Assembly: GCA_015060965.1 (NCBI GenBank)
Contig: SUXN01000026.1
Span: 1 to 41,184 of the forward strand
From: Bacteroidales bacterium
Lineage (GTDB): Bacteria > Bacteroidota > Bacteroidia > Bacteroidales > Bacteroidaceae
DNA: 41,184 nucleotides
Direction of reading: 5' to 3'
This document shows positions 505 to 19,581 of this stretch, piece after piece. A program made the position numbers and the translations under genes. The notes under the pieces are model-generated. The model had not been told where the DNA came from, made no database searches, and saw only the letters and a list, made by a program, of their open reading frames with translations. Within the stretch, counting starts at the first letter, position 1. Every line of letters begins with the position of its first letter.

Positions 505-3500
505 ATGAAGAAAGGAGAACTAATCGGACAAACATTGCTGGCAATAATGCTGCTATGCTGTAACACAAGACTATTTGCTGAGACACACGAAGGAATGTGT
601 GGTGAAAATGTAAACTGGACGCTTGACACTGAAACTGGAGCACTCAACATCTTTAGCGATGCAGAGACCAATGTGAGAATGTACGACTATGGAGATAATA
701 ACTCCAGCAACAAGGCACCCTGGGCGAATTACCGCGACAGCATCACATCGGTAACAATGAGTGACAACATCCTCAATGTGGGAACTCACGCTTTTAATCA
801 ATGCAGAAAATTAGAGACCATCAAGCTCCCGGCCAATCTTGTTTCTATCGAAGAACGCGCATTTATGGATTGCAGAATGTTGAAGAGAGTCGAAGTACCC
901 GCTGGCTTCAAGTCTTTTCATGCTGATGCATTCTACTGTTGCGAGGCCTTGGCAGAAGTTAATTTTCCCGAGGGTTTGGAGATGATTGCTAAGCGAGCTT
1001 TCTGGGGCTGTAACAGCTTGACCGAGATTTCTATTCCAGGCACTGTAAAGACGTTGGGCGACTTGATATTCTACAGCTGCTATAGAATAGAAAAGGCTGT
1101 TTTGGGCGAAGGCATTACAGAATTAGGCGAAAGTATGTTCCACGGCTGTTCTGCACTTGTAGACCTGACACTGCCAAGCACACTGACAAACATCTCCTAT
1201 GGAGCTTTCAACTGTTGCTTCGCCTTGGCAGAGGTTAACCTTCCAGCCTCTATCAACGCTATTTACGACGAGGCATTCCATCGATGCACCGGTATCAAAG
1301 AGATTGTCATTCCTGCAAGTGTCGAATATCTCGGTGGCTTTTCCCAGTGCAATAATTTGGAGAAGGTTATTTTTAATGGAGAAAGCAAGCTCAAGACCGT
1401 TGGTGAATTGGCTTTTTATCAATGCTTTAAGCTTTCGACCATAACACTCCCCGCCGGAGTGACAAGCGTAGAGCAACAGGCCTTCGAAGATTGCGATGCT
1501 TTGATTGGCCTGAACATCCCCGATGGAATAACAACCATCAGCAAGCAGGTATTCTATAAATGTGACAACCTGAAGGACATCGTACTCCACTCGGGCATAA
1601 CATCAATCGGTGACGGTGCTTTCCAGGAATGCCGTTCATTGGAGACTCTTGTAGTGCCCGCAAACGTCACATATATCGGAACTACCGCGTTTATGTCCTG
1701 CGAGAGTCTGAAAAACGTCAACATCCCCAGTGGAGTCACAACTATTTATAACTCTACATTCCAGAATTGCAAGAGCCTCCCCACCATAGCATTGCACGAC
1801 AATATTACAAAAATAAGCAATAGTGCCTTTGCCTATTGTGAGACACTGGACAATATTACCATCCCCGCTTCCGTGTCAGAGATCGAAGAGCGTGCATTCT
1901 ACGGATGCTCCAATCTGAAGAGCATCGAGATACCCTCGGGCATCACAGAACTCTCTTCTTATATCTTCTGTCAATGCACATCACTTGCAGAGGTTAAGCT
2001 TCCCTCTTCTCTACAGGAGATTAAGGTTAATGCATTCAACCAGTGTACGGCACTTGTCAATACCGATTTCTTACCTGAGAACTTGACAAAAATTAACTCT
2101 CGTGCATTCTACTATTGCAAAGGACTGACAAGCATCTACATTCCGGCAAGCGTGACAACAATAGGTACCGAAGCATTCTATGGTTGTACAGGACTGACAG
2201 TTGCCGACATACCCCAAACGGTGGTTTCTATGGGTAACACAGTGTTTGGCGGTTGCACAAGTCTCGTGAGCTATACCGTGCCTTCATGTGTGACAAAGAT
2301 TAACGCTTATGAATTCCAGAATTGTACTTCGCTTGTATCTGTCACACTCCCCGAAACAATCACAGAAATAGGTAACTATGCATTCGATGGTTGCACATCT
2401 CTTTCCTCCATCAATATACCCAATGGTGTGACAAAACTCGGGGAACATTCGTTTGATGAGTGTAAAAGCCTTACAACCATAACGTTGCCTGAAAGTATAA
2501 CCACCTTAGGTATGGGGGTGTTTTATGGATGTACAGCCTTGGAGAGCGCCGACCTTTCGGCTTGCACCCTTACAATACTACCCAATTCATCGGTAGGTGA
2601 GATGAACGGCATATTTCAGGGTTGCAGTAACCTGAAAGAGGTAAAGATGCCAAAGGGTGGTGTCACCTTGCTCAGTGGAACATTCAAGGATTGTACTGCA
2701 CTGACCGGAGTGGTGTTGCCCGAAGGTGTAAAGACTGTGGGACACTCATGTTTCTTGAATTGTACTGCGCTGCAGAGTGTCACACTTCCCGAAGGACTTG
2801 AGACGATAGGCTATCAGGCTTTCAGAAGTTGCAAGGCACTTGACAATGTTGTTTTGCCCTCTACAATAACAGTATTGGACAAAGAGGTTTTCAGATATTG
2901 CAGCTCCCTGAGCAGCATAACTATCCCTGGCGGAGTGACAAGAATAGACGATATGACATTTGCAGAATGTACGAGTCTGAGCAGTGTGAGTGTACCGTCC
3001 GGTGTGACCTATTTGGGCAACTATGCGTTCGAGGACTGCCCGATGGCTTCATTCACTGCACCGGCCGAACTGAATACTATCGGTGGGCACACATTCGATG
3101 GCTGTACCAACTTGACCACCTTGACATTCCCTGCAAAGGTAGAGACAGTAGGGTCATATGCATTCCAGGATTGCAACAACCTGACCGACATCTATTGGTG
3201 CTCCAATCCCAACTTCCACGTGTATGCATTCATTCAGTGTAATGCACGCATACATCTGACACTCAATGATGCCGATGCCACCGATTTCGCCTGCAAAAAC
3301 GAGAATACCTATCACACGGTAAGCTATACAAGAGCACTGCCCACGGGAAAGTACGGCACCATCGTGCTCCCCTTCGTTCCCGATGCTGCGTGTATGGCCA
3401 ATTATACTTTCTATAAGCTGACATCGGCCGATGACGGTACGCTCACCTTTGATGAGGTGTCATTACCCCAATCCAACGCCCCCTATCTGTACAAACTGAA

Positions 3501-3912
3501 AAGTGGCGATGCCGTTCCCCTTGTATCCACTACAAGCGTAACCATCGGTGCTGCGATGGGTGAGTCTTCCACTATCGATGCTACATGGGCAATGATACCT
3601 TCATTCAGCAACGAGACCATTGATTGTGCGTCGGATGCCAGGAAGAACTACTATGCCTATAGCTCGGCCAACCATCAGCTGAACCAGATAACCGAAACAC
3701 TCACCGTAAAACCCTATCGCGCCTATTTCACCACAGAGGTAAGCAGCGTGGCGAAAGTAAGGGTGCGCACTCGCAACGGTGAGGAGACGATAATCGATGC
3801 AGCCGAGATAGACGGACTCACCCCCGAGGTGTACTACGACCTCAATGGACGCCGTGTGGCACATCCCGAGAAAGGTATCTACATCGTAAATGGGAAGAAA
3901 CGTATTTTATAA
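505..3912 (+). CDS. BspA-like leucine-rich-repeat surface protein (LRR_5)
   Basis: A 1135-residue secreted protein. The N-terminus has a signal peptide with likely cleavage after LFA near residue 25. A short entry domain follows (about residues 30-85), then roughly 35 tandem LRR_5 repeats of about 23 residues to about residue 930, each built like xxIxIPxxVTxIGxxAFxxCxxL. A non-repeat C-terminal domain ends in YDLNGRRV...GIYIVNGKKRIL, the tail common on Bacteroidales surface and secreted proteins. BspA-like proteins act in adhesion or matrix binding in other species; the ligand here cannot be read. No strong Shine-Dalgarno precedes the ATG, as is usual in this phylum. A long structured leader lies upstream and a small peptide gene 18 bases downstream. 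The family call is firm and the role is inferred. Confidence 0.9.
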   Translation: MKKGELIGQTLLAIMLLCCNTRLFAETHEGMCGENVNWTLDTETGALNIFSDAETNVRMYDYGDNNSSNKAPWANYRDSITSVTMSDNILNVGTHAFNQCRKLETIKLPANLVSIEERAFMDCRMLKRVEVPAGFKSFHADAFYCCEALAEVNFPEGLEMIAKRAFWGCNSLTEISIPGTVKTLGDLIFYSCYRIEKAVLGEGITELGESMFHGCSALVDLTLPSTLTNISYGAFNCCFALAEVNLPASINAIYDEAFHRCTGIKEIVIPASVEYLGGFSQCNNLEKVIFNGESKLKTVGELAFYQCFKLSTITLPAGVTSVEQQAFEDCDALIGLNIPDGITTISKQVFYKCDNLKDIVLHSGITSIGDGAFQECRSLETLVVPANVTYIGTTAFMSCESLKNVNIPSGVTTIYNSTFQNCKSLPTIALHDNITKISNSAFAYCETLDNITIPASVSEIEERAFYGCSNLKSIEIPSGITELSSYIFCQCTSLAEVKLPSSLQEIKVNAFNQCTALVNTDFLPENLTKINSRAFYYCKGLTSIYIPASVTTIGTEAFYGCTGLTVADIPQTVVSMGNTVFGGCTSLVSYTVPSCVTKINAYEFQNCTSLVSVTLPETITEIGNYAFDGCTSLSSINIPNGVTKLGEHSFDECKSLTTITLPESITTLGMGVFYGCTALESADLSACTLTILPNSSVGEMNGIFQGCSNLKEVKMPKGGVTLLSGTFKDCTALTGVVLPEGVKTVGHSCFLNCTALQSVTLPEGLETIGYQAFRSCKALDNVVLPSTITVLDKEVFRYCSSLSSITIPGGVTRIDDMTFAECTSLSSVSVPSGVTYLGNYAFEDCPMASFTAPAELNTIGGHTFDGCTNLTTLTFPAKVETVGSYAFQDCNNLTDIYWCSNPNFHVYAFIQCNARIHLTLNDADATDFACKNENTYHTVSYTRALPTGKYGTIVLPFVPDAACMANYTFYKLTSADDGTLTFDEVSLPQSNAPYLYKLKSGDAVPLVSTTSVTIGAAMGESSTIDATWAMIPSFSNETIDCASDARKNYYAYSSANHQLNQITETLTVKPYRAYFTTEVSSVAKVRVRTRNGEETIIDAAEIDGLTPEVYYDLNGRRVAHPEKGIYIVNGKKRIL

Positions 3913-5597: not shown

Positions 5598-6430
5598 TAT
5601 CTGTATTCTTGTTTAAGTATATCCTGTAGCTTTTCGTATGGTATTTCTGCAATGATTTCGCCCACAGCATATGGAGCTATGTCATATTTGTTGTATATGA
5701 ATGTCAGGTTATCCTTTCCCATGACAACATTCTTCGAGATGTAGAGCTCCTTGTGGTCAAAGATTACCTCGTCAAGTTCCGCAACATCTTCCACATTCAG
5801 GAAACTGATTATTGACTGGGTTATAAGCTCAATGAGCGGTTCTTCGTAGCCGGGCTTCATTATCTCGCCGATGGTGACCTCGTGGCCGTCATTTGGGTCA
5901 AAAGTGAGGGTTGTGCAGTAGCTGTTGGGATGTGCTCCACCTGTGTACTCAAAGAAATTGATGGTGTAGTTCACGAACCCTTTGTAGCCATTGCTGCATT
6001 CGCTGCTCACCATGAACTCTTGGTTTAGCCAATGTGGCATGTCGTTGCTCTCCCTTATGTTGATATACTCCGGGCGCAGCTCCATATAATCGGTCTTGAG
6101 CTTGGCTATGTATCTGTTGCCGGCTTCGGTTATGCTCTTGCTCTCCTCGCCTGTGAGAATGTATGATATCTCTGCTATTGCCTTTTCTGTTGCAGCATTG
6201 TTATTCAGTACAATATTCTTCAATGCAACGTTGGCTGTCAGCTTTGGAGAGTCAGGGACATAGCTGTCGAGCAGTATTGTGTCATTTGCAAAGAAAGCAG
6301 TGTCGTTAGGCTGTTCAATGGCAGCCTCTGCTTTGTTCTCTTTGCCTGTACCTGTGGATGTTGTGCTGTTGTTGCAGGAATAAAGTGTAATAATTATTAA
6401 TGACAGTATGAATGTTCCGTACTTTTTCAT
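5597..6430 (-). CDS. Lipoprotein with DUF4163/DUF3298 (RsiV-like) domains
   Basis: A 277-residue predicted lipoprotein. The signal MKKYGTFILSLIIITLYSC has a lipobox ending at C19, followed by a Ser/Thr-rich linker. The C-terminal two-thirds contains YTGGAHPNSYCTTLTFD and GHEVTIGEI, the signature of the DUF3298/DUF4163 pair seen in PdaC and RsiV-type extracytoplasmic proteins. The role is unknown; the fold often binds cell-wall components. It is the first gene of the leftward operon with rsmG, under a near-perfect promoter at 6461-6491. Confidence 0.8.
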   Translation of the reverse strand: MKKYGTFILSLIIITLYSCNNSTTSTGTGKENKAEAAIEQPNDTAFFANDTILLDSYVPDSPKLTANVALKNIVLNNNAATEKAIAEISYILTGEESKSITEAGNRYIAKLKTDYMELRPEYINIRESNDMPHWLNQEFMVSSECSNGYKGFVNYTINFFEYTGGAHPNSYCTTLTFDPNDGHEVTIGEIMKPGYEEPLIELITQSIISFLNVEDVAELDEVIFDHKELYISKNVVMGKDNLTFIYNKYDIAPYAVGEIIAEIPYEKLQDILKQEYR

Positions 6431-6460
6431 GATTCAGTTGTTTATATGTTGACCAGGAAC

Positions 6461-6491
6461 CAAAGGTAGTGCTTTTGATAGGAATCAGCAA
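6461..6491 (-). promoter_or_regulatory. Promoter of the lipoprotein-rsmG-hydrolase operon
   Basis: On the minus strand, TTG (complement of 6489-6491), 20 bases and TACCTTTG (complement of 6461-6468) match the Bacteroidota consensus exactly. Transcription would start near 6455, about 25 bases before the ATG at 6430. Confidence 0.8.
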
Positions 6492-6597
6492 GAAAGTATC
6501 TCTTAATTTTCCAAAATAGGAGTCCTGTTGCTTCTCATTCCTCCCATCGGTGCACGGCGGCATTCCGGTTTATTGTTTAACCTCAAAATGTGTGTTT

Positions 6598-6807
6598 ATG
6601 AAAGTGTGTAGTATGATTGCCTTTGCAGGTGGGCTTGTGGTTGGTGGAGTAGTGGGCGGAGCAGTTGCGCTGATGTTCGCTCCCAAGAAAGGTGAGGATT
6701 TCCGTCGCGATGTCAAGGAGAAACTTGCCGATGTGAAGCGACAGTTCGCCGAGCAGGCAACAGTGTGCCATGAAGGCTATTGCAAACGCGAGGAGGTCGC
6801 CGAATAA
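6598..6807 (+). CDS. YtxH-like small membrane protein
   Basis: A 69-residue protein starting MKVCSMIAFAGG. One glycine-rich transmembrane helix (about residues 5-28, GGLVVGGVVGGAVALMFAP) is followed by PKKGEDFRRDVKEKL, the usual YtxH junction, and a charged amphipathic helix. I chose the ATG at 6598 over the GTG upstream because the hydrophobic segment then lies close to the N-terminus. YtxH proteins are linked to general stress, but their molecular role is unknown. The next gene starts 8 bases downstream. The order YtxH-like, holin-superfamily, small basic protein parallels the yqjD-yqjE-yqjK set of enterobacteria. Confidence 0.75.
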   Translation: MKVCSMIAFAGGLVVGGVVGGAVALMFAPKKGEDFRRDVKEKLADVKRQFAEQATVCHEGYCKREEVAE

Positions 6808-6815
6808 CTGTTTAT

Positions 6816-7175
6816 ATGGGCGTGATTGACGATTTTGACAATCTGTCGAAGGATGCGCAGGAGTACCTTAAAAGAAGAGTCGATGGGGTGAAGATGGACG
6901 TTATTGAGGAGTTGTCCGTGATGATGGGCAATGCTTTTGCTTCGTTGCTGCTTTTTCTGATTCTTTTTACGGCATTCCTGTTCATCCTTGTCGCAGCCGT
7001 TGCTGCACTGTCACAGCTTGTAGGTTTTGTAATAGCAATGGTTATTGCGGGTATTTTATTGCTTGTGGTCGCCTTTGTGGTGTACAGTCTGCGTGTGAGG
7101 ATTTTTACCGATGGCATAGTACGGCATCTTTGCCGTCTCATGTCTGTGAGAAAGGAGGCCGGTCATGGGGAGTGA
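6816..7175 (+). CDS. Holin-superfamily III (YqjE/PF07332-like) membrane protein
   Basis: A 119-residue inner-membrane protein. A charged amphipathic N-terminal helix (DDFDNLSKDAQEYLKRRVD, about residues 4-22) is followed by two long transmembrane helices (about 40-65 and 69-92), then a short basic tail. This is the architecture of the YqjE-like actinobacterial holin-superfamily proteins, which are not phage holins in most genomes. I start at MGVIDDF (6816), which leaves 8 bases after the YtxH gene. Its 3' end overlaps the next gene by 11 bases. Confidence 0.75.
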   Translation: MGVIDDFDNLSKDAQEYLKRRVDGVKMDVIEELSVMMGNAFASLLLFLILFTAFLFILVAAVAALSQLVGFVIAMVIAGILLLVVAFVVYSLRVRIFTDGIVRHLCRLMSVRKEAGHGE

Positions 7176-7371
7176 AAAGGATTTCATATCCTCTTTGAGT
7201 GAGTTGAGGGCCGCCAGTCGCAGGAACACAGAGAGGGTAAAGCTTTTGCGCAGTAAAATAAAGAGAGGTTACAATGTGTTGCTGCAGCAACTCTCGTTGT
7301 CTGCATTTTTAGTGCGCAAGTTCAAGGAATACACATCAAATTTATCCTTTTGGGATTATTTTGAAAAATAA
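7165..7371 (+). CDS. Small basic hypothetical protein (YqjK-like position)
   Basis: A 68-residue protein rich in Arg, Lys and Ser, with a helical N-terminal half (SLSELRAASRRNTERVKLLRS) and no signal or clear membrane helix. It overlaps the preceding membrane-protein gene (ATG within CATGGGGAGTGA), so the two are translationally coupled. Its place as third gene after a YtxH-like and a YqjE-like protein matches YqjK in enterobacteria, but I see no sequence motif that proves homology. Confidence 0.65.
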   Translation: MGSEKDFISSLSELRAASRRNTERVKLLRSKIKRGYNVLLQQLSLSAFLVRKFKEYTSNLSFWDYFEK

Positions 7372-8927: not shown

Positions 8928-10136
8928 ATGGCTACAATGAAAATTCAGTTCCGTCCATCGGTAGTTGATGGAGGGCTAGGGGTTATTTATTATCAGATAA
9001 TCCATAACGGCAAATCTTGTCTGTATAAGACGGAGTATCATCTCTATCCTGATGAGTGGGACTGTGACCGGTCAGAGGTTGTCTTGTCCGGGCGGAGTGA
9101 ATTTCGGATACATTATCTGTTGAAAATTAATTGTAATATTAAGCTTGACATTGAACGTTTTAATAGGATTATTGGTTTAATGGAACGCGACAAGCCTGAT
9201 TTTGCATCTGATGATGTTATATCCGTATTATTCCCAAAGAATCCGGAAAGTTACCTGTTTTTGTTTATGAGAAACGTAATTGCTGGCCTAAAAGATATTG
9301 GTAAGATACGTACCTCGGAAACATATACCTCTGCATTGAATAGTTTCAGGAAATTTCGGAACAATGAAGATATAGCATTCGATGATATTGATTCCGATGT
9401 TATGATTGCATATGAAGCATATCTAAAGGCCTGCGGTGTAAGTCCCAACAGCTCGTCTTTTTATATCCGTAATCTTAGAGCTGTGTATAACCGTGCTGTT
9501 GAAAAAGGATTGACATCCCAGCGCTTTCCATTCAAACATGTTTATACGGGAATTGAAAAAACTACCAAACGTGCAGTCTCTTTAAAAATAATTAAGCAGA
9601 TAAAGGATATGGATCTTTCGCATAATCCGGCCTCTGATTTTGCTCGTGATATGTTTCTCTTTTCGTTCTATACCCGTGGTATGTCTTTTGTCGATATGGC
9701 ATATTTGCAGAAAAAGAATCTGAATTCAGGTGTCTTGTCATATAGAAGACGGAAAACAGGACAACAATTGTATGTGAAGTGGGAAAGGTGTATGCAAGAA
9801 ATTGTAGATAAATATGATACCTCAGGCACAGATTACTTGTTACCTATCCTAAATACCAATAATCTCCTTCAGGCTAGGAAACAATATATATATGCTTTAC
9901 ATAAAGTTAATCGTTATTTAAAGAAAATTGGTGAAATATTTAACCTTTCAATTGTATTGACTTTATATGTAGCCCGTCATTCTTGGGCTACTATAGCAAG
10001 GAGTAAAAATGTGCCAGTTTCTGTAATTAGCGAAGCTATGGGACACGATTCGGAAACTACTACGCGTATATATCTTGCTTCGTTAGATACTAATGCTGTT
10101 GATAATGCTAATAGTTTGATACTTGAATCCCTGTGA
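8928..10136 (+). CDS. Tyrosine recombinase (probable DNA invertase)
   Basis: A 402-residue tyrosine recombinase. It has an N-terminal arm-binding domain of the Bacteroidota type (about residues 5-90), a SAM-like core-binding domain (about 110-205) and a catalytic domain (about 215-402). Catalytic residues visible are R250 (FYTRGMS), K276 (RRKTGQ), R350 (YVARHSW), H373 (MGHDS) and nucleophile Y382 (RIYLAS). The usual first histidine of the H-x-x-R box is Y347. Recombinases of this subgroup (the Tsr type of Bacteroides) invert DNA that controls surface functions. The gene is followed at once by a 434-bp segment with perfect 20-bp inverted repeats, which I infer to be its substrate. Confidence 0.92.
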   Translation: MATMKIQFRPSVVDGGLGVIYYQIIHNGKSCLYKTEYHLYPDEWDCDRSEVVLSGRSEFRIHYLLKINCNIKLDIERFNRIIGLMERDKPDFASDDVISVLFPKNPESYLFLFMRNVIAGLKDIGKIRTSETYTSALNSFRKFRNNEDIAFDDIDSDVMIAYEAYLKACGVSPNSSSFYIRNLRAVYNRAVEKGLTSQRFPFKHVYTGIEKTTKRAVSLKIIKQIKDMDLSHNPASDFARDMFLFSFYTRGMSFVDMAYLQKKNLNSGVLSYRRRKTGQQLYVKWERCMQEIVDKYDTSGTDYLLPILNTNNLLQARKQYIYALHKVNRYLKKIGEIFNLSIVLTLYVARHSWATIARSKNVPVSVISEAMGHDSETTTRIYLASLDTNAVDNANSLILESL

Positions 10137-10155
10137 ATTTGTAAATATGTTTAAC

Positions 10156-10175
10156 TCTCTTTGGAAGAGATGTGA
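10156..10175 (+). repeat. Left inverted repeat of the invertible segment
   Basis: TCTCTTTGGAAGAGATGTGA, an exact reverse complement of 10570-10589. The first 15 bases are themselves palindromic (TCTCTT-TGG-AAGAGA), as expected for two inverted recombinase half-sites. A flanking TAAC outside the repeat is shared with the right copy after one indel. Confidence 0.88.
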
Positions 10176-10278
10176 ACACAACTGCAATATTACAAAAAAA
10201 ATGTGTAAATAATAAAAATATCAATAAAAATATAAAAAAAACACGTATTAAATTGATGATTGGTATCAAACTTGAACG

Positions 10279-10309
10279 GAAATTTAACCAGACATCAACT
10301 AAAAGTCAA
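10279..10309 (-). promoter_or_regulatory. Leftward promoter candidate inside the invertible segment
   Basis: On the minus strand, TTG (complement of 10307-10309), 20 bases, TAAATTTC (complement of 10279-10286). It matches the Bacteroidota consensus except for the final base (C for G). In the present orientation it points toward the 3' end of the recombinase gene. Confidence 0.5.
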
Positions 10310-10569
10310 TTATGATTTTGTAAAATATTTTGCAAAAAATGAAGTTTTCGTTTTTACTTGCATTCTAAAACAACCACCTTCCTATTCTTGATTATATGAT
10401 CTGATACGTTTACCAACTAAAACAACAAAAGGTTTGGCTAACGATATAACAAATTAAGGGGGGTAAAAAGTTTTTGATTAATCTGATATTCATTTGAACA
10501 TCAATGTCAAAAGAGCCTAATACGATATTGAAATTTAAGAAACAAACACAATCTTAAATGATTTATAAA

Positions 10570-10589
10570 TCACATCTCTTCCAAAGAGA
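10570..10589 (-). repeat. Right inverted repeat of the invertible segment
   Basis: TCACATCTCTTCCAAAGAGA, the exact reverse complement of 10156-10175. It ends 21 bases before the ATG of the ATPase gene, so transcription into the operon must cross or start within the segment. Confidence 0.88.
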
Positions 10590-10610
10590 AGTTATTTCAA
10601 TAGAGTTGTT

Positions 10611-13289
10611 ATGGATAAGTATCAAATACAAAGTGGAGAATTTATCGCGATAGAGGTTCTGAAAATATCTTCAATACCTCATGTTTCAACATTGTCAGAA
10701 AATATTTCAACGGTTGAACAGAATCAAATAATTGTGTCATATGCTCAAAGTATGGCCAATTCTTTAACCGAAATATATCAACAATATAAAGAAAAATATA
10801 CACGTACGGGTATCAATCCGGATATGTCCTTGGATTTGACATGGATTACAGAGGCTGTTAAAAATCAGCCTTTTAGAGCAAAGATTAATTTGTATATATC
10901 GATAAGAGCAATAAATCAAAATTCATCTCTGGCGGAAAATAATGTTAGTGAAATTATAACGTTGATATCTTCAGCTCTTGATACGGATAAGTATGAATAT
11001 AAAAAAGTAGAATTGTCTTCATATTACACATCTTTGATACAAACAAATATGAGTAATGTTCAGGCAATAGTGAAAGAAGAACGTTTGGAAGATTTGCAAA
11101 ACCAATATTTCCCAGTATGTTATACGTTTGATAGATTCCCAACAGATTATCAGGATTTAAGTCGTATCGTAAGCATTTTGATCGCAAATCCGGATTGTGC
11201 AGTAAGTTTTCAACTGATTCCAACGTATTATACTCAAGAAGAACTTGTTGAGATTAATAGGTCTAATCAGACCTTAAATACCCTAAGTCGCGGTGTTACA
11301 GATCATCAAGTCGGAAATATGAGTATTAGTGCTGCTGATAAAGTTTCAGACTTGTATAGATATTATTTCGATAATAAAAGTAGGTCTTTATTTACTTATA
11401 ACATACTTATTTATGGTGGCGGTACAAGTTTAATGAGCGTGGCAACGAGAGTATTAGGACAATTGAATTCTACACAGAATATTTCGCCAAATCTTAAGTT
11501 TATCGAGATTCCTAACACAGAAGCGTTAAATAATGTGGAGATGTTGTATTCTCAACCTTGGGTTCTTAATGATTACATTATGAGCAAGGATAGGAACATG
11601 AATATCTGGAATAGTGGTATGGTTTCTAATGCGGTATACAGATTGCCCTATATTATCACTTCTGATGAAGCTGCAAATTTTTTCCGTTTGCCAATAGGAA
11701 GCGATAAGGTAAATGCAGGATTAGATGTCAATGAGACTGGCAAATCGAGCAAATCATATTCTCAAAACTTGATAAATGCAGGAGATATCAAATTTGGTGT
11801 ACTCAAATCATCCTCACAGAATGATTCTATCGGTTTAACACTAAAGGACTTGGCTAAACATATGCTTGTAGTTGGTACTCCTGGGTCTGGTAAAACAACT
11901 TTTTCTGTAGGATTGCTTGACAGACTATGGAAGGAGCATCGTATCCCATTCCTTGTTATAGAACCGGCCAAGAATGAATATAGGGCTTTGGTTCAAAGTA
12001 TACCTGAACTTCAGGTGTTTACACCTGGTAAGAATTTTATTTCTCCTTTTGTTTTTAATCCTTTTGTCCCACCAAAGAATGTAAAACTTGAAACATACAA
12101 ATCTACTTTAAAGACAGCGTTCGCTGCTGGAGTTTCAATGTCTTCACCTCTTGATAAGATTTTTGAAGATACAATAAATAATTGTTATTCGGATTTTAGA
12201 TGGTTGGATACATATACAGTAGCTGATAAAGGACGTAATTTCAATATAGCAGATTTTATTAAATGTTTTCAAGATACTTTTGATGAAATTGGATATACTG
12301 GTGATGCCAAAAATATTGGTCGTGCTGGTGTTGTGCGTTTAAAGAGCCTAGTGAATCTCTTCGATAATTATTTTTCTATACCAATAGAAGATTTGCTTAC
12401 AAAACCAACGATTATAGAGTTGGCTGCTATTGAGAATTCTGATCAAAAAGCTTTAATTATTGCTTTGTTGCTTTTGTCAATTCTTGCATATGTTAATGCA
12501 AACTATGTTGGTGAAGGAGGATTGAGAAACTTTATATTGTTAGAAGAAGCACATGTTCTGTTGGACTCTTCTAGTAGCGGTGGTGAGGGTGCAGCCAATC
12601 CTGCAGCTATAGCTCAGGGGCTTGTGAAAAGAATGCTTGCGGAGATACGTTCATATGGTGTGGGACTTGCCATTGCTGACCAATCACCTCGAAAGGTCGG
12701 AATTGATATTGTGGCTCTTACTGACATTAAAGTTGCTTTTCGACTCGTCGAGGCGCAAGACAAACAAATTTTGGCCGATTCTACAAGTATGTCAGATGTC
12801 CAGCTTGCTCGTTTGGCAAAGCTTAAGCCAGGAGAAGCTTTTTTGTTCTTTAACCGTTTGGATGAACCTGAGGAAATTCTTACTCCTAATTATCGTTTGG
12901 ATAATAATATCTCAATATCGCTCTCCGATGATGGAATAAAAGAACTGTCTACGTATTGGAAAGATAAACAGGATAAATTACGTCCGTACCCCGAATGTCA
13001 AATTTGTCCTTATTGTATGGCTTCTTGCGATTATAACCGTCGTGTTCTTGCGAAAGAGGTGGCAAGAAGAATTTTCAATAACCATATAAAATCGGGAGCT
13101 AAGGATATCGAGAAAGTTAGGTTCGTATTTTCAAGGATTCAGAATTTGATAATAAGTGAACTTAATGATGAAGTTTTTGATAGACCACTTTTATCTTGCG
13201 TTAAAGTACACTTGTGGAGAAAGATAAAATATGAGACTAGTATTGCAATCAGTGATGCTACAATTAAAAAATCTTTAATTAAAGAATAA
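10611..13289 (+). CDS. HerA/VirB4-like ATPase (DUF87 type)
   Basis: An 892-residue P-loop ATPase and first gene of the island operon. Residues 1 to about 400 form an N-terminal region I do not recognise. The ATPase core begins with Walker A GTPGSGKT (K428), followed by LVIEPAKNEYRALV and VFTPGKNFISPF, blocks typical of a DUF87/HerA branch. Walker B is LLEEAHVLLD (E645, E646), and IADQSPRKV and ARLAKLKPGEAFLFF follow. A cysteine cluster C796-x2-C799-x2-C802-x3-C806 sits after the core, with the spacing of a 4Fe-4S ferredoxin site, though zinc is also possible. HerA-family ATPases form hexameric DNA or protein pumps and occur in several defence and conjugation systems. No NurA or toxin partner is encoded beside it. 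Confidence 0.85.
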   Translation: MDKYQIQSGEFIAIEVLKISSIPHVSTLSENISTVEQNQIIVSYAQSMANSLTEIYQQYKEKYTRTGINPDMSLDLTWITEAVKNQPFRAKINLYISIRAINQNSSLAENNVSEIITLISSALDTDKYEYKKVELSSYYTSLIQTNMSNVQAIVKEERLEDLQNQYFPVCYTFDRFPTDYQDLSRIVSILIANPDCAVSFQLIPTYYTQEELVEINRSNQTLNTLSRGVTDHQVGNMSISAADKVSDLYRYYFDNKSRSLFTYNILIYGGGTSLMSVATRVLGQLNSTQNISPNLKFIEIPNTEALNNVEMLYSQPWVLNDYIMSKDRNMNIWNSGMVSNAVYRLPYIITSDEAANFFRLPIGSDKVNAGLDVNETGKSSKSYSQNLINAGDIKFGVLKSSSQNDSIGLTLKDLAKHMLVVGTPGSGKTTFSVGLLDRLWKEHRIPFLVIEPAKNEYRALVQSIPELQVFTPGKNFISPFVFNPFVPPKNVKLETYKSTLKTAFAAGVSMSSPLDKIFEDTINNCYSDFRWLDTYTVADKGRNFNIADFIKCFQDTFDEIGYTGDAKNIGRAGVVRLKSLVNLFDNYFSIPIEDLLTKPTIIELAAIENSDQKALIIALLLLSILAYVNANYVGEGGLRNFILLEEAHVLLDSSSSGGEGAANPAAIAQGLVKRMLAEIRSYGVGLAIADQSPRKVGIDIVALTDIKVAFRLVEAQDKQILADSTSMSDVQLARLAKLKPGEAFLFFNRLDEPEEILTPNYRLDNNISISLSDDGIKELSTYWKDKQDKLRPYPECQICPYCMASCDYNRRVLAKEVARRIFNNHIKSGAKDIEKVRFVFSRIQNLIISELNDEVFDRPLLSCVKVHLWRKIKYETSIAISDATIKKSLIKE

Positions 13290-13306
13290 ATAAAATACAA
13301 ATAGTC

Positions 13307-16033
13307 ATGTCGGAAGAATTTGAAGACGTTGGTAGTTTTGATGATACTTTTAACGATTCGTCAACAGATGTGGATACTGAACTTGAATCCGCAGAAATGG
13401 GAGATTCGGAGGATGATGCTGAGTTTGAAGAGGATGTTTCAGAGCAGGAGATAGAACAAGAAACAGAGGAAATAGAGGAAGCTGAATTAGCCGAGCAACA
13501 GGCTGAAGAAATGGCGAAACAGGAAGCTGAACTAGCTGAGCAACAGGCTGAGGAAATGGCAGAACAGGAATCTGAACTAGCTGAGCAACAGGCTGAGCAA
13601 GAAGCAGTACGGGCCGAACAGAAGGCAGAGCATGCAGAGGAAATTGCAGAACAAGAAGCAGAACATGCTGAGCAGGAAGCAGTACGGGCCGAACAGCGGG
13701 CAGAGCGTGCCGAGGAAATAGCAGAACAAGAAGCTGATTATGCTGAACAGGAAACAGCATGGGCCGAACTTGAGGCAGAACGTGCCGAGGAAATAGCAGA
13801 ACAGCAAGCCGAGCAACAGGCTGAACTCGAAGCAGAACAGCAAGCAGAGCTTGAAGCCGAGCAACAGGCAGAGCTTGAGGCCGAGCAACAGGCAGAGCTT
13901 GAGGCCGAGCAGCAGGCTGAACTTGAAGCAGAACAGCAAGCAGAGCTTGAAGCAGAGCAACAGGCAGAGCTTGAGGCCGAGCAGCAGGCTGAACTTGAAG
14001 CAGAGCAACAGGCTGAACTTGAAGCAGAGCAACAGGCTGAACTTGAAGCAGAGCAACAGGCTGAACTTGAAGCAGAACAGCAAGCAGAACTCGAGGCCGA
14101 GCAACAGGCTGAACTCGAAGCAGAACAGCAAGCAGAGCTTGAAGCCGAGCAACAGGCAGAGCTTGAGGCCGAGCAACAGGCAGAGCTTGAGGCCGAGCAG
14201 CAGGCTGAACTTGAGGCCGAGCAGCAAGCAGAGCTTGAAGCAGAGCAACAGGCAGAGCTTGAGGCCGAGCAGCAGGCTGAACTTGAAGCAGAGCAGCAAG
14301 CAGAACTCGAGGCCGAGCAACAGGCAGAACTTGAAGCCGAGCAACAGGCTGAACTCGAGGCAGAACAGCAAGCGGAGCTTGAGGCAGAGCAACAGGCAGA
14401 ATTAGAAGCCGAGCAGCAGGCTGAACTTGAAGCAGAGCGGCAAGCAGAACTCGAGGCCGAGCAACAGGCTGAACTTGAAGCAGAGCAACAGGCTGAACTC
14501 GAGGCAGAACAGCAAGCGGAGCAACAGGCAGAGCAACAGGCAGAATTAGAAGCCGAGCAGCAGGCTGAACTCGAGGCAGAACAGCAAGCAGAGCTTGAGG
14601 CAGAGCAACAGGCAGAATTAGAAGCCGAGCAGCAGGCTGAACTTGAAGCAGAGCGGCAAGCAGAACTCGAGGCCGAGCAACAGGCAGAGCTTGAGGCCGA
14701 GCAACAAGCTGAGCTTGAGGCAGAACAGCAAGCAGAACTCGAGGCAGAACAGCAAGCAGAGCAACAGGCAGAGCTTGAGGCCGAGCAACAAGCTGAGCTT
14801 GAAGAAGAACAGCAAGCAGAACTCGAGGCCGAGCAACAGGCAGAGCTTGAAGCAGAGCAACAAGCAGAACTCGAGGCAGAACAGCAAGCCGAGCAACAGG
14901 CAGAGCTTGAGGCCGAGCAACAAGCTGAGCTTGAGGCAGAACAGCAAGCAGAACTCGAGGCAGAACAGCAAGCAGAGCAACAGGCAGAGCTTGAGGCCGA
15001 GCAACAAGCTGAGCTTGAGGCAGAACAGCAAGCAGAACTCGAGGCCGAGCAACAGGCTGAGCTTGAAGCAGAACAACAGGCAGAACTCGAAGCAGAAAGT
15101 AAGATGTCTCCCTCAGAACTTTATGAAAAGGGTCAGTTAGAGATGAATGAAGCACAGCGTGAGGCAGAGGAGTGGGCCGATGAAAATGGTATGGAGCGTT
15201 GGAGTGACGGCACACTAAGAACAAAAGAAGAAGATCCTAGTCTTTCTGACTATAATGTAACGCTTGATGGTCATTCTTTGGATCTTGATAAAGATTCTTT
15301 AGAGGGAACAAAGATGATGATTGGTCATTATGAATATGATGATGCACAGTTTGCAAATGATGTTAAATGGGGGGAGGATTATAAAGCAGCAACAGATGGT
15401 CTCTACTCTGACAATATGTCTGATATAAATGAGTCTATGGCAGGTATTAAATCTGCAAATGCAGAATATAAAGAGAATCAAGCTGAAACAGAAAAGATGG
15501 CAGACTATATGCACTGGCAAAGGGATTCATATATCGAAGAATATAATCCAAATGCTTCTGAACCAGAAATAGCGTCAAAGTGGCAAAGCGAGTTTGAGGC
15601 AGAACAACAGACTGAACTCAAGGACGAAAGTCGGATGTCTCCATCGGAACTTTACGAAAAAGGTCAGTTAGAGATGAACGAAGCACAGCGTGAGGCTGAG
15701 GAATGGGCCGATAAAAATGGAATGGAACGATGGAGCGATGGAACTTTAAGGGAAAACTATATGGAAAGTATAAAAGATGCTGAAGCTGCAAATCAATTTG
15801 AAATGGAAGCTGGGCAAAGGGCCGCACTCGAGGCAGATGTACAAGCTCAAGCGGATGCTCTGAATAAAGAGTACGTAGGTTTAATGGATAGAAAACAGGC
15901 TGCATTTGACAGCGCCGTTGATGCTACTAATATAGAAGATCGCGACCGTTTTGCTAATATCCAAAGCGATATAGGAATAGAAATGGAGCAGGTAAGGAGT
16001 AAAATTATTGAGAACAAAAATAGACTCAAATAG
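13307..16033 (+). CDS. Giant acidic octapeptide-repeat protein
   Basis: A 908-residue, extremely acidic protein of unknown function. Residues 1-60 are Asp/Glu-rich. Residues about 60-165 are irregular Ala/Glu/Gln helix. Residues about 165-600 are about fifty tandem copies of AEQQAELE, with occasional half units (EQQA). The period is eight, not seven, so a classic coiled coil is not ideal; a long single helix or unusual coil is more likely. A 40-residue module beginning MSPSELYEKGQLEMNEAQ and ending near ERWSDGTLR occurs at about 600-640 and again at about 777-817. The C-terminus is a Lys/Glu-rich helix ending ENKNRLK. There is no signal peptide or membrane helix. It follows the ATPase gene by 17 bases. 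A cytoplasmic scaffold or spacer is a guess. Confidence 0.8.
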   Translation: MSEEFEDVGSFDDTFNDSSTDVDTELESAEMGDSEDDAEFEEDVSEQEIEQETEEIEEAELAEQQAEEMAKQEAELAEQQAEEMAEQESELAEQQAEQEAVRAEQKAEHAEEIAEQEAEHAEQEAVRAEQRAERAEEIAEQEADYAEQETAWAELEAERAEEIAEQQAEQQAELEAEQQAELEAEQQAELEAEQQAELEAEQQAELEAEQQAELEAEQQAELEAEQQAELEAEQQAELEAEQQAELEAEQQAELEAEQQAELEAEQQAELEAEQQAELEAEQQAELEAEQQAELEAEQQAELEAEQQAELEAEQQAELEAEQQAELEAEQQAELEAEQQAELEAEQQAELEAEQQAELEAEQQAELEAEQQAELEAERQAELEAEQQAELEAEQQAELEAEQQAEQQAEQQAELEAEQQAELEAEQQAELEAEQQAELEAEQQAELEAERQAELEAEQQAELEAEQQAELEAEQQAELEAEQQAEQQAELEAEQQAELEEEQQAELEAEQQAELEAEQQAELEAEQQAEQQAELEAEQQAELEAEQQAELEAEQQAEQQAELEAEQQAELEAEQQAELEAEQQAELEAEQQAELEAESKMSPSELYEKGQLEMNEAQREAEEWADENGMERWSDGTLRTKEEDPSLSDYNVTLDGHSLDLDKDSLEGTKMMIGHYEYDDAQFANDVKWGEDYKAATDGLYSDNMSDINESMAGIKSANAEYKENQAETEKMADYMHWQRDSYIEEYNPNASEPEIASKWQSEFEAEQQTELKDESRMSPSELYEKGQLEMNEAQREAEEWADKNGMERWSDGTLRENYMESIKDAEAANQFEMEAGQRAALEADVQAQADALNKEYVGLMDRKQAAFDSAVDATNIEDRDRFANIQSDIGIEMEQVRSKIIENKNRLK
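13800..15100 (+). repeat. 24-bp tandem coding repeats
   Basis: About fifty in-frame units of 24 bp encode AEQQAELE. Units differ almost only at synonymous positions (GAA/GAG, GCA/GCC/GCT, CTT/CTC). Blocks of identical synonymous patterns recur, such as the 14400-14530 pattern at 14580-14660, as expected from unequal exchange. Several units are shortened by 12 bp. The array keeps other frames open on both strands. Confidence 0.92.
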
Positions 16034-16035
16034 TT

Positions 16036-16351
16036 ATGCCCGAATGATATGAAGATGAGTTTTATGGCAACCTGCAAATATACAACTAGCGAGAAGATGC
16101 AAAGCAACTATACAATGAAATCTATGTCGAATAAAGGAATACTATAGATGGCTGGAAGGAGGAGTATCGGCAATAACAAACAGATTGTAGAAATCTGTAA
16201 GAATAAAGCCTATTATTCTTCTTCTTAAAAGGAATGGAATAACTATGTCGATGAAAAAATAAGTGCTCAAAACGATATTTCAACTCGTTTCCATCAAATA
16301 CAATCAGAAATGAGGAATTTAGAAATAGAAATGGATAAAGGGAAAAAATGA
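16036..16351 (+). pseudogene. Decayed gene related to the C-terminus of the repeat protein
   Basis: From the ATG at 16036 a single frame reads YEDEFYGNLQIYN, then REDAKQLYNEIYVE, RNTIDGWKEEYRQ and QTDCRNL, with in-frame stops between the blocks. A frame change near 16200-16230 leads to an intact stretch (EWNNYVDEKISAQNDISTRF and onward, ending EIEMDKGKK) with TGA at 16349. The last block resembles the C-terminus of the repeat protein just upstream (RFANIQSDIGIEMEQVRSK). The composition is protein-like but no frame is open, so this is most likely a remnant of a second, related gene. The resemblance is judged by eye. Confidence 0.55.
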
Positions 16352-16376
16352 ATTGAAAATTTAAAATATAGAAATT

Positions 16377-17522
16377 ATGGGACTATTTCACAGAAATGAA
16401 AATGAAGTCAATTTTGCTGGTGGAAGCAAAAATGTAATGGAGTCGATTCAGCGTACAACAGATACCAATACGTTGATATATCTTGATTCTCGTGTAGATT
16501 TTAATACTAATTCTGTTATAACAGTCGCTCCAAACGAGCAAGTGATTTTTATTAAAAATGGCGAATTTTATGGAACATTGCCCCCTGGAAGACATGAGGT
16601 TAAGACAGAAAATTATCCTTTCTTGAGTAGATTACGTAATATGTTGACAGGCGGTGTTAGTACATTCTCTTGTCAAGTATATCATGTAAATACTTCTGAA
16701 CAGAATGTAAGTTGGGGTACCAGTAGCGCTATTGAAATTCAGGACTTCTTTTTAGGAGGAGGGATGATTGGAGTCCCCACCCTTATTCGTGGAGCAGGAG
16801 AGTTTCGTGTAAGATTTAACATACTTGAAGATGATGATGCAAGCAAACAAACTTTTATGAGATTGATGGGTGACAAGAGTACTTATACATCAAATGATTT
16901 GAGTATGTTGTTTAGGGCTCAAATATCTCAAGAAATAAGCGATGTCGTCGGTAAAACATTAGAAGAACGTTCAATGCATCGTTCAATCAATGCAATATCA
17001 AGTCAATTGAAGGATTTTTCTAAAGAATTGAAACCTGTATTTGATAGGTTGTTTGTAGATTATGGATTGGAACTTATTAATTTCTCTTTCTATAATTTGA
17101 CAATAGATGAAACCGAAGAACGTAAGAAATATCTTGATAGACTCATTGCGGCAGCACATGCAGGCAGTTATGACAAAGCTGTTCAGCAGGAGCTGTTGAA
17201 AGATGTGGCCGTAAATCCAGGTGCCGGCGGTATAGCAAGTGCTGGAGCTGGACTTGGAATGGGAATGGCGGCAGGTAATGCATTCTCACAGATGGCCACA
17301 ACTGCTTTTTCTACTTCACAGCAGCCTCAGGCCCCGCTGCAACCTATGGGTTTTGGTGGACAGAGCCGTTTTGGTGTAAATGGAGGACAACCACAACAAG
17401 CACAGCATCCTCAAAATGATCCAATGTCATCATTGAAGCAAATGAAGCAAATGCTTGAGGAAGGACTTATAACTCAGGAGATTTATGACGCAAAAGTAGC
17501 AGAGATTTTGAGTAGAATGTAA
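16377..17522 (+). CDS. SPFH-domain protein with SHOCT tail (YdjI-like, virion-core type)
   Basis: A 381-residue protein. The SPFH/band-7-like core spans about residues 40-265 (ITVAPNEQVIFIKNGEFYGT, PPGRHEV, EERSMHRSINAISSQL, YGLELINFSFYNL). A Gly/Ala/Gln-rich linker follows (about 280-350). The end is a SHOCT-type helical hairpin (KQMKQMLEEGLITQEIYDAKVAEIL). This matches the family often labelled virion core protein, represented by YdjI of Bacillus subtilis, which helps recruit a PspA-type protein to stressed membrane. There is no transmembrane helix, so it probably associates with membrane through other proteins. It is followed by a membrane-protein gene 16 bases away and then a zinc-ribbon gene, the same set of partners as in ydjGHI. 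No pspA-like gene is in the window. Confidence 0.8.
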   Translation: MGLFHRNENEVNFAGGSKNVMESIQRTTDTNTLIYLDSRVDFNTNSVITVAPNEQVIFIKNGEFYGTLPPGRHEVKTENYPFLSRLRNMLTGGVSTFSCQVYHVNTSEQNVSWGTSSAIEIQDFFLGGGMIGVPTLIRGAGEFRVRFNILEDDDASKQTFMRLMGDKSTYTSNDLSMLFRAQISQEISDVVGKTLEERSMHRSINAISSQLKDFSKELKPVFDRLFVDYGLELINFSFYNLTIDETEERKKYLDRLIAAAHAGSYDKAVQQELLKDVAVNPGAGGIASAGAGLGMGMAAGNAFSQMATTAFSTSQQPQAPLQPMGFGGQSRFGVNGGQPQQAQHPQNDPMSSLKQMKQMLEEGLITQEIYDAKVAEILSRM

Positions 17523-17538
17523 TTAAAACAATATTACT

Positions 17539-18222
17539 ATGAAAAAAGCAATATTAATAACCAGTTTGGCATTAGTTTTTTTAGCATTATTTAATGGATT
17601 ATTCTTTTTTATTGGAGGTACAGAGCATTCTGAAGCAAATTGGGTTAGTTATGGGTTTATTCATGTTGCCTACGCATGTATTCTATTAACACCGCTTTTC
17701 TGTAGGTCAGGGAAGAAACTTGAGGTCTTGTCATATAGCTTATACTTGAGGGCTTTCTTTTATTTCTTTACAGAACTTGTAATAGGTGTTATCTGTATAT
17801 GGATTGATCCTGAAAATTCAAAATGGCCATTAATTATTCAAGGTGTTTTATTGGCGATATTCTTGGTCCTTCAGATAATGAGTGTTTTAGCAAATGATAG
17901 TACTGCTGAAACTATTCAAAAGCAAAAAACAGAATCTATGCTAATACAAGATATGGCGCAAAGAATTAGGGTTGGTATGAGAGAGATCTCTGATTCTAGT
18001 GTGAAAAAGTTAGTAGAACGATGCTATGATGCTATAAATAATAGTTCAATACAGAGCTTTCCTGAAGCAGCGGATGTAGAACTAGAACTCCGTCAAGCAG
18101 TTGATACGCTATGTACTGCGATTGAGAAAAATAATAAAGAATATATAATAAATGCTGCTAAATCTATAGACAGTATTGTAAAAGAACGCAATGCAATTAT
18201 TAGAAAATGTAGAATCAATTAA
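17539..18222 (+). CDS. Four-helix membrane protein (YdjH-like position)
   Basis: A 227-residue integral membrane protein. Hydrophobic segments lie at about residues 4-26, 37-57, 68-90 and 98-121. A cytoplasmic helical tail follows (about 122-227), with QDMAQRIRVGMREISDSSVKK and a Glu/Lys-rich end. I see no catalytic motif. It lies between the SPFH and zinc-ribbon genes, as YdjH does in B. subtilis, and gene order is the main reason for the comparison. The tail could be an interaction arm for the SPFH protein. Confidence 0.65.
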   Translation: MKKAILITSLALVFLALFNGLFFFIGGTEHSEANWVSYGFIHVAYACILLTPLFCRSGKKLEVLSYSLYLRAFFYFFTELVIGVICIWIDPENSKWPLIIQGVLLAIFLVLQIMSVLANDSTAETIQKQKTESMLIQDMAQRIRVGMREISDSSVKKLVERCYDAINNSSIQSFPEAADVELELRQAVDTLCTAIEKNNKEYIINAAKSIDSIVKERNAIIRKCRIN

Positions 18223-18244
18223 TTAACAATTAAAATTAATCAAT

Positions 18245-19330
18245 ATGGCAGATTCATTAGAATTACAGCAAGTTATTTGTCCTAGTTGTAAACAAGTAAT
18301 CAGTTCTTTTAGTCCATTTGCGGCTGAAGTAGAATGTCCTTATTGTCATAATAAGGCGTTTAATCCGCTTATCACTGCAAAGAAAGTCCCAGTTCCAGAA
18401 CGCTTGATTGTTTTTAAGACAGACGAGAATAATTTCGAGCAAGCGATGGTTGCTAATTTGGTGGAGCGTGATTATGTTCCTACGGACATTTTTAGTTGTA
18501 TTAATCCAGAGAATGTTATAAAGGCATATTTACCAATGTTCCTGTATGAAGGCAGATATCAATCCTCTTGGTCTTGTAAGGTTGCATATGAAGCAACAGA
18601 AGTACGTGCTACTTCTGATGGTAAAGGTGTAAAAAATAAGACTGTAAAGAAATTTGCTCCACATACTGGTACATCTCAGGGAAACTTTGCGTTTCTATGT
18701 TTAGCGTACGAAGGAAAAGATATCCCTGATGAACTTCGCACTTTTAGTACGCAATTCCCATATAATACAATGGCTTCTATGGAGTATGATCCTAATTTGC
18801 TAGGATTGGATTCTGAAGATAACCTTTTGACTCTTCCAATGGATGCTGATACTGACCTTATTTGGAATAAATATGGAGATAGTCTTGTAAACGAAATTGC
18901 TATTGATAATGCTAAGCAGCAATTGTCTGGAGAAGAGATTCAAGATTTCAAAGCAAGTAATAGTTATGATCTCAAACATAACGGAAGATATGTTTTGGCG
19001 CCATTCTGGTTCGTTTATTATACCTATAATAACGAAAAACATTATTTCATTATGGATGGTTTGGGAGAGAATTCAGCGATGTCTACTCCAATAAACAAAG
19101 AGGAGGTTGCGTTTGTTGAAGGTAAGGAACGAATTGCAAAAATTGTTTCTTGGTTGTGGATTTTGGCTATTATCTTGATGTTTGTAGCTGGGTTTACCGC
19201 TGGACTTTTAACATTGGGCTTATGGCTTGTTGCTAAGATTGTTGTGAGAAAGGTTATGAACAACCAGATTCAAGCCCGTTTGGATGCTTCTCGTGAAGCA
19301 AGACGTGTAGCTGCATCAAGATTATCATAA
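18245..19330 (+). CDS. Zinc-ribbon membrane protein (YdjG-like)
   Basis: A 361-residue protein. It starts with a TFIIB-type zinc ribbon (C12-x2-C15, C31-x2-C34: CPSCKQ...CPYCHN). A long soluble region follows (about 45-295), with YLPMFLYEGRYQSSWSC and YVLAPFWFVYYTYNNEKHYF. Then come two closely spaced transmembrane helices (about 302-336) and a basic C-terminal tail (ARLDASREARRVAASRLS). Proteins of this architecture are often mis-labelled as primosomal helicases because of the ribbon; there is no helicase motif here. YdjG of B. subtilis has the same plan. The intergenic gaps of 22 and 11 bases place it in the same operon as its neighbours. Confidence 0.75.
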   Translation: MADSLELQQVICPSCKQVISSFSPFAAEVECPYCHNKAFNPLITAKKVPVPERLIVFKTDENNFEQAMVANLVERDYVPTDIFSCINPENVIKAYLPMFLYEGRYQSSWSCKVAYEATEVRATSDGKGVKNKTVKKFAPHTGTSQGNFAFLCLAYEGKDIPDELRTFSTQFPYNTMASMEYDPNLLGLDSEDNLLTLPMDADTDLIWNKYGDSLVNEIAIDNAKQQLSGEEIQDFKASNSYDLKHNGRYVLAPFWFVYYTYNNEKHYFIMDGLGENSAMSTPINKEEVAFVEGKERIAKIVSWLWILAIILMFVAGFTAGLLTLGLWLVAKIVVRKVMNNQIQARLDASREARRVAASRLS

Positions 19331-19341
19331 TATAATTTTAT

Positions 19342-19581
19342 ATGGAAAACCAAAAACAAACGAATGGACTAGGAACTGCTGGATTTGTTTTAGCACTTAT
19401 TTCCTTAATTTTTTGTTGGCTACCTTTAGTGAATGGGATTCTTTGGCTAATTGGATTGACGTTTTCGTTAATAGGTGTCTTTAGACAACCTAAAGGACTT
19501 GCAATTACAGGATTGGTCTTATCTGTTATTGTCTTATTTATTATGATTTTTTTATTAACAGTGGTTTTGCAAACTATGTAA
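19342..19581 (+). CDS. DUF4190-type two-helix membrane protein
   Basis: A 79-residue protein with two transmembrane helices (about 13-37 and 51-76) joined by a short loop with FRQPKGLAITGLVLS. The motif GTAGFVLALISLIF...GLTFSLIGVFRQPKGLAITGL is characteristic of DUF4190. The function is unknown. It is the last gene of the island operon, 11 bases after the zinc-ribbon gene and 38 bases before the terminator. Confidence 0.75.
   Translation: MENQKQTNGLGTAGFVLALISLIFCWLPLVNGILWLIGLTFSLIGVFRQPKGLAITGLVLSVIVLFIMIFLLTVVLQTM

Follow-up and report, generated by a model that had tools for sequence, protein, structure and literature searches.

A putative recombinase-flipped promoter switch in front of a HerA-type ATPase operon in Bacteroidales

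Analysis of a 41 184-nucleotide stretch of Bacteroidales DNA (the window) led us to a locus that is very probably a promoter switch, flipped by a tyrosine recombinase, for an operon headed by a HerA-type ATPase gene. We assign it to the recombinase-linked promoter switches of Bacteroidales because of its inverted repeats, the layout found in relatives, the rule followed by the spacers of the repeat cores and the promoter box that relatives carry at a fixed place. On these grounds we infer that the window copy inverts and that the segment acts as a promoter on which the operon depends. Switches of this kind are already known; what is new here is the HerA-operon cargo. The literature that we searched, subscription papers lying mostly outside its scope, contained no account of a HerA-SPFH operon under phase variation, and in PMC7159879 the terms band-7, HerA and SPFH appear only in the reference list.

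The initial annotation had placed the segment among the inverting promoters of Bacteroidales, and published parallels support this (PMC4747536, PMC12118408). In Bacteroides fragilis, the invertible promoter IVp-I, with the -7 consensus TAnnTTTG, lies directly downstream of the gene for Tsr19 (BF2766), so that the order is as in the window: tyrosine recombinase, invertible promoter, operon (PMC4747536). The differences are that the Tsr19 cargo is an extracellular polysaccharide operon, that Tsr19 also inverts a distant second promoter and that its inversion was shown experimentally, the likeness drawn here being one of layout. Palindromic repeats were described beside tyrosine invertases and CPS or S-layer operons of Bacteroides and Parabacteroides (PMC12118408); these too are 17-20 bp long, with an internal palindrome, a variable middle and the recombinase upstream, and they bound segments of about 290-345 bp, but their core is GTTAC-GTAAC rather than TCTCTT-nnn-AAGAGA and their cargo is different. 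Invertases near invertons have also been described in gut genomes.

The features of the locus are listed in Table 1.

Table 1. Coordinates of the predicted switch and of the operon downstream of it
Feature	Position	Strand	Basis or remark
Tyrosine recombinase (DNA invertase), 402 aa	8928..10136	+	Pfam domains
Left inverted repeat	10156..10175	+	Core 10156-10170
Putative invertible promoter segment, 434 bp	10156..10589	.	Inverted repeats, layout in relatives, spacer match
-7-like box TAATATTG	10185..10192	-	TAnnTTTG with one mismatch, 37 nt inside left end, faces away from operon
Right inverted repeat	10570..10589	-	Core 10575-10589
HerA/DUF87 ATPase, 892 aa	10611..13289	+	Pfam; Walker A GTPGSGKTT and LLEEAH invariant in 10/10 aligned relatives
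Acidic protein, 908 aa	13307..16033	+	Long QQAELEAE-type tandem repeat
SPFH protein, 381 aa	16377..17522	+	Band_7_1 66.5 bits (cut-off 24); weak C-terminal SHOCT match
Predicted membrane protein, 227 aa	17539..18222	+	N-terminal half hydrophobic by eye
Zinc-ribbon-like protein, 361 aa	18245..19330	+	CxxC...CxxC start, hydrophobic C-terminal part
Small membrane-like protein, 79 aa	19342..19581	+	Weak DUF4190 match

What the initial annotation said of the immediate anatomy was confirmed throughout: a recombinase gene less than 20 bases from a 434-bp gene-free segment, perfect 20-bp inverted repeats with a palindromic core, and 21 bases between the right repeat and the first gene of the operon. 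The two arms are complementary at 20 of 20 positions and enclose 394 nt; 19 bases lie between the recombinase stop codon and the left arm, another 21 between the right arm and the start codon (ATG) of the operon, and no stop-free stretch of the segment exceeds 52 codons. The longest perfect inverted repeat found in each of 300 dinucleotide shuffles of 8928-11000 measured 9-15 bp. Each arm contains the palindromic core TCTCTT-TGG-AAGAGA, the 3-bp spacer TGG being identical in both. The GC content of the segment is 26%, against 46% for the window. As to a terminator role for the repeats, no terminator-like site was found. The recombinase has the Pfam domains Phage_int_SAM_5 (4e-20), Phage_integrase (8e-8) and Arm-DNA-bind_5 (1.5e-4), together with the sequences ARHSWA and GHDSETTTRIY, which we take to be catalytic motifs. 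Within its own 2.59-Mb genome, neither the 20-bp arm nor the core TCTCTTnnnAAGAGA has a copy outside these two sites, and the three further recombinase matches are only 24-27% identical to the window recombinase; the recombinase and its repeat pair therefore look dedicated.

Relatives of the recombinase at E<=1e-30 are present in 95 of 201 genomes drawn from the family, and we fetched 100 stretches from the listed recombinase matches, comprising the top ones and a distant group from lower ranks. An inverted repeat (score of at least 14, span of 120-900, within the next 1 kb) was found downstream of 58 of the 95 recombinases with at least 300 nt of downstream sequence, against 3 of 97 upstream flanks and 0-1.5% in the shuffled null. 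The remaining 37 had no repeat by this rule, two of them (L064 and L087) showing a 12-nt repeat below the threshold. Five recombinases lay less than 300 nt before a contig end, and an invertible segment could cause contig ends near recombinases. For the counts of orientation and segments, the top-scoring repeats of L059 and L068 were swapped for lower-scoring ones containing the core, and for non-redundant counts the near-copies L082, L085, L100 and L101 were removed. When the core alone was searched, with no repeat demanded, two palindromic cores 120-900 bp apart were found in 43 of 97 loci and in none of 98 upstream flanks. After removal of near-copies, both cores shared the same 3-bp spacer, in inverted sense, in 40 of 41 loci; there were 26 different spacers among these loci, and re-pairing of cores between loci gave a mean of 2.1 matches and a maximum of 9 in 5000 permutations. 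The single exception, L154, is probably a wrong core pair. For strand exchange in the spacer, such identity within a locus would be needed; duplication of an arm could produce this identity initially, though presumably not its upkeep while loci diverge. Going by the literature searched, the explicit spacer rule is new for this recombinase family, and it may be implicit in published degenerate repeat consensuses like GCTACTYRGNRAGTAGC. With a promoter box at a fixed place in addition, these comparisons lend the switch anatomy proposed for the window the support of its relatives. Perhaps two switches exist within one of the loci, L055: a further inverted repeat (36 nt; two cores in tandem, spacer TGG) lies about 1.95-2.19 kb downstream of the recombinase and precedes a DUF3575 gene, while the spacer of the first repeat is GAT.

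Of 120 segment ends, 42 have an exact TAnnTTTG box at a distance of 34-41 nt, as compared to a mean of 1.1 and a maximum of 5 in 200 shuffles; none of the control stretches to the right of the segments has one (58 of 60 being long enough). Among the 60 segments, with boxes sought 26-60 nt from the end, 39 had the box directed towards the recombinase (OFF), 8 towards the cargo (ON), 2 in both directions, and 11 had no exact box; without the four near-copies these numbers become 35, 8, 2 and 11 (n=56). The window segment is one of the 11; its one-mismatch box, at 37 nt, lies where the family usually has it but has no good TTTG about 20 nt upstream, and its promoter is possibly weak. The left ends of the window segment and of L057 can be aligned over 76 nt with 74% identity; the aligned stretch contains the promoter box, which is exact in L057. 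The initial annotation had suggested a possible OFF state from the best promoter match; the leftward direction of the -7-like box agrees with this, while a generic sigma-70 scan of 10050-10700 was of no use, giving 5 sites against 3.9 +/- 2.0 in shuffles. Since that scan does not settle the matter, orientation is argued here from the -7 box of Bacteroidales and from the relatives, and the assembly probably shows the OFF state. A proposed search of relatives for the opposite orientation succeeded in part: both directions occur across the family, but homologous segment interiors were seen in the same orientation only, and among the relatives, with one genome per species, no single locus was found in both orientations.

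In the mechanism that we propose, the recombinase would bind the palindromic cores in both arms, and strand exchange in the TGG spacer would invert the segment. The promoter, located just inside one end, would face left in the OFF state, as assembled, and would face right in the ON state, reading through the right arm and on into the HerA operon. The population would thus be mixed, with a minority of cells expressing a complex of HerA-type ATPase, SPFH, membrane and zinc-ribbon proteins. An alternative is a frozen switch: repeats and recombinase would be left over from a switch that once worked, its promoter having decayed since, and the operon would be either silent or driven in another way. 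The mismatch in the window box, its weak upstream element and the length of the segment (434 bp, while about 170-300 bp is typical of relatives and most are shorter) would fit such a decay; we nevertheless consider it improbable, for the arms still match perfectly, the recombinase frame is intact and all six operon frames are open. Still less probable is an integrase role of the recombinase in a mobile island, in which the repeats would serve attachment or binding instead of inversion. The region does have the composition of an island, its GC content, leaving the repeat gene aside, being 34% at 8928-13300 and 36% at 16377-19581 while the flanks have 47-49%, and no recombinase was found beside rmuC in the other 25 members of the genus with an rmuC match. 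But the repeats are inverted and lie between the recombinase and the cargo, not at the ends of the island, and the same form, with its promoter box, recurs beside relatives that have unrelated cargo.

With a recombinase-flipped promoter remaining the preferred reading, the origin of the locus can be considered. The same gene set, with variations, is found in three other loci, L007 (Prevotella), L010 and L156, and a partial set in Bacillota loci, namely L008, L013 and L014 as well as L009, L011 and L012, whose sequences stop short of the SPFH gene; identity of the HerA proteins is 45-71%. The operon is patchy and rare: a full-length HerA relative (E<=1e-120) is present in 2 of 393 genomes of the order, its own included, and 3 other genomes out of 44 of the genus have HerA matches, which are only partial (29-36%). 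A pattern scan of viral contigs found no HerA, phage records gave two partial matches (26-28%) and plasmids one (32%). In the stretches examined, none of the nine relatives of the operon has a recombinase of this family, nor was a core pair or a perfect repeat of more than 12 bp found upstream of them (up to 3 kb examined; 1.1 kb for L013 and 2.3 kb for L012), which indicates that the operon does not need the switch. Considering these switchless relatives and the low GC content of the island, the recombinase, the switch and the operon look like one acquired block here, the operon seemingly travelling without the switch elsewhere. A search of the genus for an uninterrupted version of the locus found rmuC conserved together with the gene upstream of it; within 1.5 kb there was no trace of the downstream neighbour, so that no boundary of the insertion emerged. 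Three observations may be added. On either side of the island (505-3912 and 21272-22771) there are large proteins with BspA-like leucine-rich repeats, as judged by eye. The record of L010 is titled Paenibacillus, its neighbouring genes resemble SusC/SusD-type genes of Bacteroidales by eye, and it is probably a misplaced contig. Upstream of the Prevotella operon, L007 encodes at 6376-7218 a KilA-N protein that matches the PADLOC candidate PDC-S22 (4e-131).

To see what the switches of relatives precede, cargo labels were derived from similarity searches seeded with annotated proteins for 62 loci, i.e. the 60 segments plus L064 and L087, both added solely for this count. The labels were UpxY-type in 20 cases, DUF3575/DUF3868 fimbria-like in 11, restriction-modification in 8, dynamin-like in 2, Zorya in 1 and HerA (the window) in 1, with 14 others and 5 loci too short; these rows are not independent, L079, L082 and L085 being near-copies and L066 and L069 related. 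All 11 defence-like cases belong to recombinases that share 50% identity or more with that of the window (28 in number); the 33 below 50% have none. In a tree of 48 full-length recombinases (out of 62 rows, those matching only from residue 61 or later being omitted), the defence label needs at least five changes on well-supported branches, the window being counted as defence by assumption. The window recombinase belongs there to a clade of five with a support of 100/99, the other members being L055, L056 and L057, which all precede DUF3575/DUF3868 genes, and L058, which meets a contig end. As its closest clade precedes fimbria-like genes, the window switch was probably taken from, or is shared with, a fimbria-type locus, and for the same reason the switch alone is no proof of a defence cargo. 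Thus the initial claim of a non-surface cargo holds for the HerA operon but not as something unique, since relatives precede not just capsule and fimbria-like genes but restriction-modification, Zorya and dynamin-like genes as well. L064, where genes for ZorA (5e-239) and ZorB (3e-82) lie behind a switch with the spacer GCC, is possibly a phase-variable Zorya system. Within the genus of the window, the switch of L062 (2405-9293) is followed by a membrane protein of the DUF445 type and by large proteins without an assignment. The recombinase genes of L079 (962-2148) and L087 (934-2120) are 95.5% identical at the DNA level while their repeats and downstream genes are different; here, switch and cargo were exchanged beside a nearly identical recombinase.

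The operon itself was initially described as a seven-gene island. We count six genes downstream of the switch, and seven only if the recombinase is included; the interval 16034-16376, which separates the SPFH gene from the repeat gene, has no intact gene, its broken reading frames being perhaps a gene remnant. The gene of the acidic protein contains a tandem repeat (13808-15096, 17.7 copies of a 72-bp period), and GC content reaches 56% at 13501-15000 against 34-39% around. The PADLOC match of this protein to Type I specificity subunits (6.6e-38) and the NCBIfam adhesin matches were rejected as low-complexity artefacts, there being no such Pfam match. In the zinc-ribbon-like protein, cysteines C12, C15, C31 and C34 are invariant in 3 of 3 sequences. 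Most likely, judging from its predicted proteins, the operon specifies an ATPase assembly that is anchored in the membrane and built on an SPFH scaffold.

As for its function, a protective role in general seems rather probable to us, with phage attack and envelope attack undecided as its target, and we rate envelope stress and anti-phage defence about equally. One tentative reading makes the cargo a Psp-like envelope-stress module comparable to pspA-ydjGHI of Bacillus subtilis, with the HerA-type ATPase in place of PspA. The published ydj operon encodes, besides PspA, an SPFH (band-7) protein, a membrane protein with a zinc ribbon and a membrane anchor, YdjG and YdjH anchoring the SPFH protein YdjI and PspA (PMC8581546, PMC11237479). 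The window operon likewise combines SPFH, membrane and zinc-ribbon proteins, and its Band_7_1 domain is also found in B. subtilis. But pspA-ydjGHI has PspA and no HerA ATPase, and it is regulated by stress, not by inversion (same sources); moreover, PspA had no match among the six operon proteins (Pfam, E up to 0.1), the likeness of the membrane and zinc-ribbon proteins to YdjH and YdjG is one of description only, and the spread of the operon is patchy. The other reading, an anti-phage operon switched for bet-hedging, may also be right, at somewhat less than an even chance. Like the HerA/FtsK ATPases of defence systems, the window ATPase has a DUF87/HerA core, with weak matches to solved HerA chains, and the operon gives weak PADLOC matches to HerA and Mad8 (1e-13 and weaker); the restriction-modification, dynamin-like and Zorya genes behind related switches and the KilA-N protein of L007 point in the same direction. 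Against it stand the fimbria-like genes switched by the nearest recombinase clade and the lack of a complete match to any known defence system. The ATPase matches are all far below curated cut-offs (37.2 bits against 800 for HerA_antiphage, NCBIfam NF042943; 77.6 against 600 for the CedD DNA importer ATPase, NCBIfam NF053655), and no nuclease partner was recognised in the operon by Pfam. At this point we may only speculate that the operon is a protective system so far undescribed that moves horizontally and was, in this lineage, placed behind a switch borrowed from a fimbria-type surface locus and used by the population as a hedge, a proposal that we regard as possible rather than probable.

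If our reading of the locus is right, a poorly known ATPase/SPFH operon becomes linked to phase variation, and one recombinase family would serve both surface and defence genes. The rule for the spacers, by which each locus has a private 3-bp address matched within it, would provide a simple means to find such switches in assemblies and also predicts which sites are able to recombine. For the window, the prediction is that cells with a flipped segment would express the operon and differ in their sensitivity to phage or to envelope stress.
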